Shown here one piece after another: positions 9,128 to 15,954 of a DNA stretch of 64,000 nucleotides. The stretch lies in NCBI GenBank assembly GCA_009838525.1, contig VXRJ01000016.1, positions 1 to 64,000 of the forward strand, in the 5' to 3' direction. How positions within the stretch are numbered: position 1 is the stretch's first letter; every line of letters starts with the position of its first letter. The position numbers were made by a program, and so were the translations under genes. The notes under the pieces are model-generated. The model was not told the origin of the DNA, did no database searches, and saw nothing but the letters and a program-made list of their open reading frames with translations. The stretch is from Acidobacteriota bacterium (GTDB taxonomy: Bacteria > Acidobacteriota > Vicinamibacteria > Vicinamibacterales > UBA8438).

Positions 9128-9784
9128 ATGGCAAAGGTCAAGAGCCGGGTAAGTGGGGGGCAGCCGACGCCAGCCGGGCCACCTACGGGCAAGCACGTCT
9201 GCGTCTATCTTGGCGGACACCTAGGGCGGGACGAGCAATTCCGCGATGAGGCCGACGCCCTGGGTCGCATGATGGCCGCCGAGGGAATAGGCCTCGTATA
9301 CGGCGGTGCGAGCATCGGTCTGATGGGCGTGCTCGCCAACGCCGCCCTCGACGAAGGCGGTTATGTCACCGGCGTGATCCCCCGGCAATTGTCGTACCAG
9401 GAGCTTGCTCACGAAGGGCTGAGCCGCATCGTCGAAGTCAACACGATGCACGAACGGAAGCACCTGATGCAGAGTCTCGTCCAGGGATGCCTGGCCCTGC
9501 CCGGTGGGTACGGCACGACCGAGGAGATCTTCGAAGCGCTGACGTGGTCCCAGGTTCCGGTCGAAATGCACGAGAAGCCGTGCGTGTTTGCGAACATCAA
9601 CGGTTACTTCGATCACATGTTCAGTTTCCTCGACCACGCCGTCGAGCAAGGACTACTGCTGCCCCACAATCGCAACCTTGCCATGCAGGCGCCGACCGCC
9701 ACGGGAGCACTGCAGAAGATCCAGAACGCCTGGGCCGAGGAGGAACAGGCGATTCTCGACGTGATCAAGTCCTACGAGGCGTGA
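9128..9784 (+). CDS. LOG-family nucleoside 5'-monophosphate phosphoribohydrolase (TIGR00730-like)
   Basis: This 218-residue cytosolic enzyme carries the LOG motif PGGYGTTEE (125-133) and the preceding MHERKHLM (about 107-114), which together form the nucleotide and phosphoribosyl site. An early VYGGASIGLMG loop completes the fold. The family releases free base from (cytokinin-type) nucleoside monophosphates; in bacteria it often serves nucleotide salvage. The first ~20 residues (Pro/Gly-rich) are probably a disordered extension. It is divergent from the purine-type permease, a possible functional link through free nucleobases, and is followed by a DNA methyltransferase 16 bases later. Confidence 0.9.
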   Translation: MAKVKSRVSGGQPTPAGPPTGKHVCVYLGGHLGRDEQFRDEADALGRMMAAEGIGLVYGGASIGLMGVLANAALDEGGYVTGVIPRQLSYQELAHEGLSRIVEVNTMHERKHLMQSLVQGCLALPGGYGTTEEIFEALTWSQVPVEMHEKPCVFANINGYFDHMFSFLDHAVEQGLLLPHNRNLAMQAPTATGALQKIQNAWAEEEQAILDVIKSYEA

Positions 9785-9800: not shown

Positions 9801-11027
9801 ATGCAGTACGCGTTCGCTTCGGACGCCGACCAACGCCTGACGCTGACTGAATTCGTGCGCGAGCTGGAGGGCTGGCGCCGGTACGGCAAGGCAACGACCG
9901 TGTCGGAGTACGCCGGCGTGCCCGTCATCGCGAACGAGTTCTGGACGTCCAGGCAGCGGGCCGCGCACTCCCTGCACGAGATCTCCTACCGCGCATGCTT
10001 CAAGCCGCAACTGCCACGCTTCTTCATCACGCGCCTGACGAACCCGGATGACGTGGTCTTCGATCCGTTCATGGGACGGGGAACGACGCTGCTGGAAGCC
10101 GCGCTGCACGGGCGGCAGCCCCTGGGAAACGACGTCAACCCGCTGTCTCGCCTCCTGCTCGAACCGAGGCTGGACCCACCATCGATAGAGGCCGTCGTCG
10201 ATCGCCTGAGCGCGCTGTCGCTGGACGACCCGGCGGCGCCTCCCGACGGCTTCGATGTCTTCTTCCACGAGCGTACGCTGAACCAGATTTGCCGTTTGCG
10301 GGAGTACCTGCGCGAACGTCGTGCCGGCGGTTCGACCGATGCTGTCGATCGCTGGATCCAGATGGTCGCCATCAACCGGCTGACTGGACATTCCCCGGGG
10401 TTTTTCTCCGTCTACACGCTGCCGCCGAACCAGGCAACCACCATCGAACGGCAGCGCAAGACCAACGCGCGCCGCAATCAGCGGCCGGAGTACCGCGATG
10501 TCGCCGATCTGATTCGCCGCAAGACGCGTTCGCTCCTGCGCGACGTGCCGCGCCAGGCGCCGGCGGAGCGGAACGGCGGGTTCTTCGAACAACCGGTCGG
10601 AGAACCGTTCGCCTACGACGGACCTCCGGTAACGCTCGCCGTCACGTCGCCGCCGTTCCTCGATGTCGTCAACTACCGGTCGGACAACTGGATGCGGTGC
10701 TGGTTCGCGGGCGTCGATCCCGAGGAGGTCGAGATCACGCAGACCGGCAATCTGGAGGCATGGCGCTCGCTCGTGCGGGAGACGCTCGAGAACGTAGCCT
10801 CGATGGCGTCCCACGACAGCGTCTTCGCGTTCGAAGTGGGCGAGGTTCGTAGCGGGTCGCTGCTGCTGGATCGTGTGGTCGTGGACGTGGCGCGGGACAC
10901 GCCCTGGGAACCCGTCTGTGTCGTCGTGAACGAGCAGGCGTTCACCAAGACGTCCAACACCTGGGGCGTCCGCAACAACCGGGCCGGCACCAATTCCAAC
11001 CGAATCGTCGTCATGCGGCGTGGTTGA
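9801..11027 (+). CDS. Orphan site-specific DNA methyltransferase (N4C/N6A type)
   Basis: This 408-residue protein carries SAM motif I as DPFMGRGTT (88-96) and catalytic motif IV as TSPPF (282-286), the pattern of amino-methyltransferases acting on N4-cytosine or N6-adenine. The SAM motif precedes the catalytic motif by about 190 residues. That differs from the beta order common for TSPPY enzymes, and the intervening segment (about 120-270) probably contains target recognition. No restriction endonuclease or specificity subunit lies nearby, so it may be a solitary regulatory or remnant methyltransferase. The ATG follows the LOG gene by 16 bases. Confidence 0.85.
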   Translation: MQYAFASDADQRLTLTEFVRELEGWRRYGKATTVSEYAGVPVIANEFWTSRQRAAHSLHEISYRACFKPQLPRFFITRLTNPDDVVFDPFMGRGTTLLEAALHGRQPLGNDVNPLSRLLLEPRLDPPSIEAVVDRLSALSLDDPAAPPDGFDVFFHERTLNQICRLREYLRERRAGGSTDAVDRWIQMVAINRLTGHSPGFFSVYTLPPNQATTIERQRKTNARRNQRPEYRDVADLIRRKTRSLLRDVPRQAPAERNGGFFEQPVGEPFAYDGPPVTLAVTSPPFLDVVNYRSDNWMRCWFAGVDPEEVEITQTGNLEAWRSLVRETLENVASMASHDSVFAFEVGEVRSGSLLLDRVVVDVARDTPWEPVCVVVNEQAFTKTSNTWGVRNNRAGTNSNRIVVMRRG

Positions 11028-11172: not shown

Positions 11173-12603
11173 ATGGCCGAACGCAGACTGGACCGACGTC
11201 ACCCCGATCCCGGAACGAGCCGGCGGGAGTTCTTCAAGTTTCTGGCCGCCAGCCCCTTGCTGGGCCTGGCTGCGTCGGGTCTGCCGGCAAGCTGGCAGCG
11301 CGCCCTTGCCCATGAGGCCGAGCGCGGCGCGGCGCCCGGATCCGCGGCGCTGCAGTGCCGGGCTTGCGGGACGGAGATCATCCCTTCACTGGAACAGCCT
11401 CGTTTCGGGGCCGCCCAGGAACCGCAACTGCCTCCCCAGAACGCCATCGAGGATCAGTTGACGGGGCAGATGATCGAGTCGCCGGACGAAGCCATCAACG
11501 TCTGGGACTTCGAGCGCGTGGCGCATGCCAACAACCTGCCCCAGCACTGGGACTACCTGCACATGGGAGTCGACGACTACGAAACGAGGCGTGCCAACCG
11601 GGAAGGATTCCAGCGCCTGATGCTTCGTCCCCGGCGGCTCGGCGGCGAGGAGTTGCCGGAGCTCGACACCTCGGCCGAGTTCTATGGCCGGCGCTGGGCC
11701 TCTCCCCTCTTTCTCTGTCCGGTCGCGAGTCTCGAGGCCTATCACACGCAGGGCGAGAGCGGCGCCGCGCGGGCGGCCGGGGCGAGAGACATCCTGCAGA
11801 TGCAGTCGCATCAGAGCTCGCAGTCATACGTGGAGATCGCCGAGGCCCGCGGCGAGCCGCACTGGTTCCAGATCTACACGGTGCCCGACTGGAACGTGAA
11901 CAAGCGGGTCATCGACCGCGTCGCCAGCGCGGGCTGCCCCGCCCTGGTATGGACCATCGACCTGCTGGGCGGCAGCAACCGCGAGTTGCAGCGACGCACG
12001 CTGGCGGGCGAGGGTTACGAGTCGGTGCTCTGCCAGAACTGCCACCAGCACCATCCGGACTACCTGCGGCCGATGCGGGCCGGCCTGGAGGGCCCCGAAG
12101 GCGAGCGCTATCCCTACACTTGGGACTACATCAAGCGCCTCAAGGACGCGAGCGACATGAAGCTCATCCTGAAGGGCATCATGACCGCCGAGGGCGCCGA
12201 GCAGGCGATCGAGCACGGCGCGGACGGGATCTTCGTGTCGAATCACGGCGGCCGGGCGGTGAACAGCATGTGGTCGTCGATCGACTCGTTGCCCGAGGTC
12301 GTCGGCGCGGTCCGGGGCCGGGTGCCGGTCTTCATCGACAGCGGCGTCCGTCGGGGCACCGACCTGTTCAAGGCGGTCGCGCTCGGGGCCGACGGGGTGG
12401 GGATTGGCCGCCCCTACGTGTGGGGTCTCGGCGCCTTCGGAGAGGACGGCGTCACCAAGGTGATCGACCTGATCCACGCGGAGTTCCGGATTGCCATGCG
12501 GCAGACGCGGACGACGTCGGTCGAGCAGATCACGTCCCGCTTCGTCATGGAGGCCAAGAACCCCATCATGATGCGTGACAACAGCTTCGGCTTCGGGTTG
12601 TGA
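11173..12603 (+). CDS. Tat-exported FMN-dependent alpha-hydroxy-acid oxidase with two CxxC motifs
   Basis: This 476-residue enzyme starts at ATG 11173 behind AGGAGAGCAGAGG. The N-terminus has a twin-arginine signal (SRREFFKF near 16-23), unusual for the mostly cytosolic lactate/glycolate oxidase family. The FMN barrel is clear: SNHGGRAVN with the catalytic His (about H358), the downstream IDSGVRRGTD, and LGADGVGIGRPYVWG. Two Cys pairs stand out, C62/C65 just after the signal and C287/C290 followed by His (CQNCH). They could bind zinc, iron-sulfur or covalent haem c. It probably oxidises a 2-hydroxy acid in the periplasm. A YceI-family gene follows 47 bases later. Confidence 0.88.
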   Translation: MAERRLDRRHPDPGTSRREFFKFLAASPLLGLAASGLPASWQRALAHEAERGAAPGSAALQCRACGTEIIPSLEQPRFGAAQEPQLPPQNAIEDQLTGQMIESPDEAINVWDFERVAHANNLPQHWDYLHMGVDDYETRRANREGFQRLMLRPRRLGGEELPELDTSAEFYGRRWASPLFLCPVASLEAYHTQGESGAARAAGARDILQMQSHQSSQSYVEIAEARGEPHWFQIYTVPDWNVNKRVIDRVASAGCPALVWTIDLLGGSNRELQRRTLAGEGYESVLCQNCHQHHPDYLRPMRAGLEGPEGERYPYTWDYIKRLKDASDMKLILKGIMTAEGAEQAIEHGADGIFVSNHGGRAVNSMWSSIDSLPEVVGAVRGRVPVFIDSGVRRGTDLFKAVALGADGVGIGRPYVWGLGAFGEDGVTKVIDLIHAEFRIAMRQTRTTSVEQITSRFVMEAKNPIMMRDNSFGFGL

Positions 12604-12650: not shown

Positions 12651-13226
12651 ATGCTCGTCGCACGTCGAACCGGTTTCTTGCTCCGGTCCGTGACCGGCGC
12701 TGCGCTTGGTCTGGCACTGCTGGCCGGCTCCGAGGCGGCGGCGCAGTCCACGGTGGAGTTCACCGTCTCCGGCACATCGACGGTCCGGGGATGGACCTGT
12801 TCGGTCAGCGGAACGGCAGACGTTGCCTCCGGTTCGTCCGCGCCGGCCCCCGGCTTCGATTCCGGGGTCCAGTCGGCCACGCTGACGGTTCAGGTAGCCG
12901 ACTTCGAGTGCCCTGACGAAACGATGACCGAGCATCTCCAGGAAGCGATGAAGCCGGAGGAGTTCGCCGAGATCACCTTCGAGCTCGAGAGCTACGAGGC
13001 CTCCGGGGCCGGCGCCCAAGCCAGCGGCGCGCTCACCATCCATGACGTGACCACGCCGGTGACCTTCCCGATTTCGCTCACCCCGGCCGCATCGGGTGTC
13101 GAGATCGCCGGTGAGGTCACATTGGACATGACGACCTACGGCGTGGAACCGCCTGTCGTCATGCTCGGACTCCTGCGCGTTCGGCCGGAGATACGCATCG
13201 AGTTCAGCGGCCTCGTCGTTCCGTAG
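12651..13226 (+). CDS. YceI-family periplasmic lipid-binding-fold protein
   Basis: This 191-residue protein starts at ATG 12651 with GAGGAGGA upstream. A signal peptide ends around EAAAQ, and the mature part is a YceI-type lipocalin-like barrel: it begins with FTVSGTSTVRGWTC and has ELESYEASG, GALTIHDVTTPVTFPI and a final RPEIRIEFSGL. Family members bind isoprenoid chains, often ubiquinone-like. It contains a Cys pair (WTCSV and FECPDE) that may form a disulfide. The position just downstream of the exported FMN oxidase suggests a quinone or electron-acceptor link, which is inference. Confidence 0.85.
   Translation: MLVARRTGFLLRSVTGAALGLALLAGSEAAAQSTVEFTVSGTSTVRGWTCSVSGTADVASGSSAPAPGFDSGVQSATLTVQVADFECPDETMTEHLQEAMKPEEFAEITFELESYEASGAGAQASGALTIHDVTTPVTFPISLTPAASGVEIAGEVTLDMTTYGVEPPVVMLGLLRVRPEIRIEFSGLVVP

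Positions 13227-13273: not shown

Positions 13274-15954
<2,681 letters not shown>

Follow-up and report, generated by a model that had tools for sequence, protein, structure and literature searches.

FMN-dependent enzymes acting on 2-hydroxyacids belong to a family that is currently read as oxidases, dehydrogenases or flavocytochrome b2. The part of a review of cytochrome-bearing flavoenzymes drawn on here places flavocytochrome b2 among the b-type proteins and describes c-type cytochromes as separate subunits or multihaem proteins (PMC6472588). According to the same part of that review, the haem b of flavocytochrome b2 is held in a separate, hinged N-terminal cytochrome b5 domain (PMC6472588). 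The excerpted sections of a survey of misannotation in EC 1.1.3.15 deal with b5-type haem domains and with long loops 4, and do not mention CxxCH (PMC8491902). A full-text literature search, with most subscription journals outside its reach, gave no haem c-bearing FMN 2-hydroxyacid dehydrogenase among the matches listed.

We analysed a window of 64,000 nucleotides, the whole stretch of DNA from contig VXRJ01000016.1 of an Acidobacteriota bacterium. Judged from its sequence and those of its relatives, one protein encoded in it (the window protein) is probably an FMN-haem c 2-hydroxyacid dehydrogenase exported by the twin-arginine pathway, with its haem on C287 and C290 and with H291 and H125 as haem ligands. 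The features concerned are as follows.

11173..12603, + strand: gene of an FMN-dependent 2-hydroxyacid dehydrogenase/oxidase, a predicted haem c protein (476 aa; PF01070)
11173..11316, + strand: twin-arginine signal region, residues 1-48, with SRREFFKFLAASPLL at residues 16-30
11356..11367, + strand: C62-R-A-C65, the start of a CxxCG knuckle on the N-terminal extension (from conservation in the clade)
11545..11547, + strand: His125, proposed distal haem ligand (His in 116/116 covering class members)
11554..11556, + strand: Tyr128, equivalent of glycolate oxidase Tyr24 (from profile alignment to 1gox)
11959..12123, + strand: loop 4 region (D263-W317) carrying the CxxCH (from the class alignment)
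12031..12045, + strand: C287-Q-N-C290-H291, proposed haem c attachment site and proximal ligand (Cys, Cys and His in 35/35 and 84/84 rows)
12651..13226, + strand: YceI-family lipocalin-like protein with an apparent Sec signal, 191 aa (PF04264, 71.5 bits against a cut-off of 23.7)

A reading made from the sequence alone (the sequence-only reading) had described an alpha-hydroxy-acid oxidase-family gene with a twin-arginine signal at 11173-12603 (+). This was borne out by the open reading frame, by PF01070 and by the motif, and in the translated frame C62xxC65 and C287xxC290-H291 were found at the positions claimed. In the Pfam search FMN_dh (PF01070) matched residues 121-458 with 332 bits against a cut-off of 24.9. 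Equivalog cut-offs of NCBIfam were missed, with 208 bits of the 645.5 required for L-lactate oxidase, 182.1 of 550 for LldD and 161.7 of 470.85 for MftD. A first AlphaFold model was poor (pLDDT 61.2). The second (pLDDT 74.3, pTM 0.73) had a good barrel and a weak loop 4 and N-terminus, and both were of low confidence in the CxxCH loop (pLDDT about 50-60, with stretches below 50). The top fold matches of the second model were the glycolate oxidases 5zbm (Z 43.8) and 1gox (Z 43.7), over about 340 residues at 34% identity, and the fold searches confirmed the glycolate-oxidase fold for residues ~100-463. As read from profile match and model, the window protein is an FMN enzyme with this fold. Tyr128, Tyr235, Asp263, Lys334, His358 and Arg361, which we take to be the equivalents of the glycolate oxidase catalytic set, are all present. 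A second FMN_dh locus in the host genome (contig C34) has copies without CxxC in the parts read.

Relatives were sought in 193 genomes of the same taxonomic class (1e-70), 199 of the phylum (1e-40) and a sample of 249 Gemmatimonadota genomes (1e-70), and were found in 75, 24 and 53 of them, respectively. The best matches of these searches and 60 more stretches were read, which gave 150 distinct FMN_dh ORFs, or 140 after filtering on the catalytic motif HG[GA][RT]. The ten left out were three fragments from the window's clade (L026, L030, L031), four ORFs that have the CxxCH with an altered site (L061, L157, L158, L174) and three second copies without CxxCH (L002, L048, L059). A CxxCH at the C287 site was present in 119/140 ORFs, which we refer to as the class; 35 of these rows have both CxxCG and CxxCH and make up the window's clade, and 84 were grouped as CxxCH only. 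The remaining 21/140 were grouped as having neither motif, one of them (L026_+4873) being a frame-shifted piece of a clade member. All these counts are of sequences, several of them near-identical, and not of independent events.

The two Cys and the His of the CxxCH never vary in the 119 rows, and the residue pair between the cysteines occurs in 47 different combinations; as middle pairs vary in this way in cytochromes c, we counted this for haem c. Counted from D263, the first Cys comes after a spacing of 24 in the window's clade and, for the most part, of 21 in the remaining class rows. The stretch that follows the His is 20 to 44 residues long, and the motif therefore lies in a loop that is otherwise free to change. 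The catalytic residues Y235, D263, K334, H358 and R361 were found in 35/35 clade rows and 84/84 other class rows, and Y128 in 32/35 and 75/81. A first set of 26 close relatives came from public genomes carrying the labels Acidobacteria/Vicinamibacteria or Gemmatimonadota. In this set C62/C65 were kept in 25/25 covering sequences, as were C287/C290/H291; in these loci C62, C65, C182, C255, C287, C290, H291 and H293 are invariant where covered. Thus the conservation check proposed in the sequence-only reading came out positive for both Cys pairs within the window's clade. Its statement that the family lacks such pairs held in the 20 genuine rows without CxxCH and failed for the wider class, a large set of exported relatives, ~40-58% identical to the window protein, that share the CxxCH but not the CxxC.

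The combination of His125, Arg155, CxxCH and twin-arginine motif was present in two IMG/VR contigs (L179, L180) and on a plasmid of Methylobacterium bullatum (L200), at ~41-43% identity to the window protein. The two contigs had been found with patterns that do not cover the diagnostic residues, and L200 by plasmid search. Apart from L179 and L180, the viral-contig loci (19 of 21) are without CxxCH. In L148, L149, L151 and L154 the CxxCH is followed by a long cytochrome-like loop (CGTCHTLNPDD...PDGKP), and more of a grafted cytochrome fragment may have been preserved there.

A scan of alignment columns 100-476 for residues present in at least 95% of the class and in less than 50% of the others yielded A107, H125, T138, R155, A199, G227, P229, N269, C287, C290, H291, R322 and F422, with H125, C287, C290 and H291 as the sole class-specific Cys or His. 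At position 125 His was found in 35/35 clade rows and 81/81 other covering class rows, and in 0/20 covering rows without CxxCH, which have Val, Ala or others. In eight viral-contig relatives without CxxCH (alignment A4), position 125 is occupied by Phe or Leu and position 155 by Val or Ile. H125 aligns three residues before the tyrosine of 1gox that is equivalent to Tyr128, where 1gox has Val; in the usual 1gox numbering these are presumably Tyr24 and Val21. In L061, L157, L158 and L174 R361 is replaced by His and Tyr128/Tyr235 are altered, yet H125, R155 and the CxxCH are kept, which argues that H125 goes with the CxxCH rather than with the hydroxy-acid site. This side branch is perhaps a haem-FMN protein with another reaction. 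As the alignments have it, H125, C287, C290 and H291 are the ligand set that a bis-His haem c needs. In flavocytochrome b2 Tyr143, the same tyrosine as Tyr128, touches a haem propionate, and the proposed haem would therefore lie where the haem of b2 docks. We would guess that the class-specific Arg155 holds a haem propionate. Met301 was considered as distal ligand and is less likely than His125, being present in 35/35 clade rows but in 68/82 covering rows elsewhere. C182 and C255 were rejected as parts of a metal site, as both vary across the class.

An RR followed by an uncharged hydrophobic stretch was found in 35/35 clade rows and in 81/81 other class rows with enough upstream sequence (116/116), from which we infer export via the twin-arginine pathway; a cleavage site near ALA-HE would be our guess. 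The same crude test was passed by 9/18 homologues without CxxCH, so export alone is no class marker. One of the FMN_dh proteins without CxxCH (L041) has the same ARRQFFRFLAASPLL twin-arginine signal, and Ala at 125. In the host genome a CcmE gene adjoins a CcmF-type gene (contig C35), and further PF01578 (CcmF/CcmC-type) proteins and TatC are encoded. PF01578 was found in 249/249 genomes of the Gemmatimonadota sample, and the presence of the Ccm system therefore cannot discriminate between readings, as this sample contained no genome that might have spoken against the haem. The usual substrates of cytochrome c maturation are unfolded chains and those of the twin-arginine pathway folded ones, so haem attachment to a pre-folded protein would be unusual.

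Cytochrome c profiles were also compared with the class. No curated cytochrome c profile scored above its cut-off in 41 class members, and no match was listed for the window protein. Below threshold, PF13442 matched 5/41 and PF00034 2/41 class members (best E 0.016 and 0.14), and there were no cytochrome c profile matches in 27 relatives without CxxCH. Of ten class members scanned singly nine gave no match to the cytochrome c model; in the tenth, L139, the match (residues 219-243, E 0.077) overlies its CxxCH at 221-225. These matches weakly support a haem. In the mechanism that we propose, the protein would receive its haem in the periplasm, where the cytochrome c maturation system would link it to the loop 4 cysteines C287 and C290. 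H291 would be the proximal ligand; the distal one would be H125, which precedes the substrate-binding Tyr128 by one helix turn. A 2-hydroxyacid would reduce FMN, which would pass single electrons to the haem beside the active site, and the haem would hand them on to an acceptor in the periplasm. For the window's clade, the probable partner would be the YceI protein, perhaps as a quinone carrier.

The sequence-only reading had offered a zinc ribbon or haem c for the Cys pairs. We consider it unlikely that C62xxC65 and C287xxC290 share a zinc, or a rubredoxin-like iron, through which the N-terminal extension would be pinned onto loop 4. Such a site would fit the invariance of both pairs in the 35 clade rows, the further clade-specific His residues H130 (38/38) and H293 (39/39), and the second model, in which residues 61 and 68 form a short beta bridge around the CxxCG and residues 285-291 are helical, as would suit a knuckle with a helix. 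However, CxxCH and H125 are invariant also in class members without the N-terminal pair (84/84 as grouped; among the rows covering the N-terminus, read as untrimmed ORFs, 78/81 are without any CxxC). Of the three exceptions, only L080 carries a genuine CxxCG; the CxxC of L145 and L146 is of a different type and may precede the start. Two clade members, L084 and L090 (the latter placed in the clade by identity and not by the tree), are without the CxxCG stretch, possibly through assembly error, and keep CxxCH, H130 and H293. A four-Cys site needs no His right after the second Cys, yet H291 never varies. The ribbon joining the two pairs was rejected because the CxxCH persists where the N-terminal pair is absent, and the haem c half of the proposal is favoured by the class-specific H125 and CxxCH. 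C62xxC65 is absent from two clade members and from almost the entire remaining class; on the alignment it is therefore a separate and dispensable addition of the window's clade and not the partner of C287xxC290. It may possibly form a disulphide or a small metal site. The median distance from the RR to residue 110 is 93 residues in the window's clade and 50 in the rest. H130, H230 and H293 were found in 38/38, 38/39 and 39/39 clade sequences and in 0/78, 0/79 and 1/79 elsewhere in the class. A clade-specific Cys2His2 zinc site of C62, C65, H130 and H293 was weakened as a candidate, as L084 and L090 keep both His without C62/C65.

Two further readings dispense with the haem and leave C62xxC65 aside. 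Four invariant, class-specific ligands would suit a structural zinc in a lid loop, and C287, C290, H291 and H125 could then form a mononuclear Cys2His2-type metal site. We find this improbable, since the middle pairs are cytochrome c-like, sub-threshold cytochrome c matches occur in the class and in 0/27 controls, and export to the compartment in which haem c is attached fits haem better. An adjacent Cys and His, moreover, rarely bind the same small ion. A redox-active or structural disulphide C287-C290, in a thioredoxin-like CxxC in the periplasm, appears very improbable: exported CxxC pairs are often oxidised, and one placed in the lid loop might control access to the active site, but the invariant His291 and the invariant His125 would be left unexplained.

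Turning to the acceptor of an FMN-haem c enzyme, the sequence-only reading had noted a YceI protein after the FMN gene, in agreement with the PF04264 match at 12651-13226 (+). The YceI gene starts 47 bp after the stop codon of the FMN gene on the same strand, and YceI is the next same-strand gene in 31/35 clade loci; the clade loci without a called YceI gene are L159, L160, L161 and L018, where gene calling failed and the first 900 bp showed no open frame. YceI was also found downstream in L028, L080 and L084 and in four sister-group loci (L120, L121, L123, L124), and this arrangement suggests a functional tie between YceI and the FMN enzyme in the window's clade. In 68 other class loci, each with over 1 kb of sequence available downstream, no YceI gene turned up, so YceI is not a partner that the whole class shares. 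The parts of a study of YceI proteins used here report that relatives bind isoprenoids or ubiquinone-8, and that BcnA is linked to the cytochrome b561 LcoA, which is proposed to reduce BcnA-bound quinone (PMC9113575). By analogy, the pair in the window may move electrons from hydroxyacid to FMN, haem and YceI-bound quinone, the last step being one that we infer from gene order. The extracytoplasmic redox chain suggested by the sequence-only reading fits these results, the twin-arginine signal being class-wide and YceI being linked in the window's clade. The same FMN-haem c enzyme could also, with a chance that we put not far below even, donate to a soluble cytochrome c or an outer electron-transfer chain, with YceI unrelated or an accessory lipid carrier. 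The class evidently works without YceI in the 68 loci just mentioned, and flavocytochrome b2 uses cytochrome c, as stated in the sections of the EC 1.1.3.15 survey considered (PMC8491902). Against this stands the same-strand position of YceI in the clade and sister-group loci.

Among 51 close same-strand neighbours (best 25 of 58 families) no common neighbour besides YceI was seen, the most frequent family in that set, FG-GAP/UnbV_ASPIC, occurring in 4/51. In the window a catalase-peroxidase-like ORF of 740 aa (13274-15496, -) lies tail to tail with the YceI gene, beside a Fur-like ORF (15493-15954, -), both named by reading their translations. Two KatG peptides were without a match among the genes called in the remaining class loci, and the window's own copy is cut in L001. 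Upstream of the FMN gene, at 146 bp, is a DNA methylase with an N6_N4_Mtase domain (9801-11027, +; PF01555, E 6e-13), and a LOG/'lysine decarboxylase' family protein (PF03641) is encoded at 9128-9784 (+).

In a quick tree of 136 rows with the CxxCH masked, which has SH-aLRT support only and long branches, the 19 genuine non-CxxCH rows grouped together in a single clade (support 96), and another clade (support 99) united the window's clade with a small sister group. The grouping of the non-CxxCH rows fits a single gain, or a single loss, of the haem motif. L041 is the first branch among these rows and a natural comparison for the haem question. More tentatively, and at well under an even chance, we propose that one-domain FMN-haem c enzymes form a class of their own, spread over Acidobacteriota, Gemmatimonadota and, with Methylobacterium bullatum, at least one Alphaproteobacterium. 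Its members would have acquired a short cytochrome-like CxxCH within loop 4 of the glycolate-oxidase barrel and recruited a His of helix 1 to serve as the second ligand. The protein would be exported folded by the twin-arginine pathway, the exposed loop would receive its haem later, and in the window's clade electrons would pass to a YceI-held quinone.

If the haem is confirmed, this would be a one-domain flavin-haem c enzyme without a description in the searchable literature. With its covalent haem in the flavin domain, it would represent a second, independent wiring of FMN chemistry to one-electron carriers, and hundreds of exported proteins annotated only as FMN_dh could be reinterpreted as electron donors to the periplasmic chain. 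It also raises the question of whether the cytochrome c maturation machinery can act on a loop of a protein pre-folded for twin-arginine export. For electrodes that work by direct electron transfer, a compact hydroxyacid dehydrogenase that combines flavin and haem in one domain would be a candidate.

Among known systems, glycolate oxidase and hydroxyacid oxidase (1gox, HAO1) have the closest solved fold and share the active-site Tyr, Asp, Lys, His and Arg, but are cytosolic or peroxisomal without an export signal, and 1gox has no CxxCH. (S)-mandelate dehydrogenase and lactate monooxygenase belong to the same family and have a long loop 4, according to the sections of the survey considered (PMC8491902); their loop inserts have no CxxCH in the aligned rows shown. 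(S)-mandelate dehydrogenase passes its electrons to quinone in the membrane. The pre-mycofactocin synthase MftD (TIGR03966, 'actino_HemFlav') has the FMN_dh fold and matches 41/41 members of alignment A2 as a relative, but the window protein, at the score given above, is no member. For a CxxCH fragment within an unrelated fold there is a precedent in the haem c Cache domains (DUF3365/Tll0287), as described in part of a paper on them (PMC12889525); these are sensor domains and not FMN enzymes, and no sequence relation is claimed. The BcnA/LcoA pair is similar in that a YceI protein is genetically linked to a haem redox protein, in the parts of that study used here (PMC9113575), with the difference that the partner of BcnA is a membrane cytochrome b561 and that of the window's YceI would be an exported FMN enzyme. 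The likeness to yeast flavocytochrome b2 (EC 1.1.2.3) extends to the FMN domain, as 1fcb and its relatives are matched by the class profile and appear in the Foldseek list, to the catalytic residues, to a non-cytosolic location and to the proposed path from 2-hydroxyacid through FMN and a bis-His haem to an outside acceptor. In place of the hinged cytochrome b5 domain, the window protein is predicted to carry its haem, a covalent haem c, within the flavin domain itself, in loop 4. No cytochrome b5 family was among its Pfam matches, so it would work like b2 while falling outside b2. The best reading of the window protein is a periplasmic one-domain counterpart of flavocytochrome b2.
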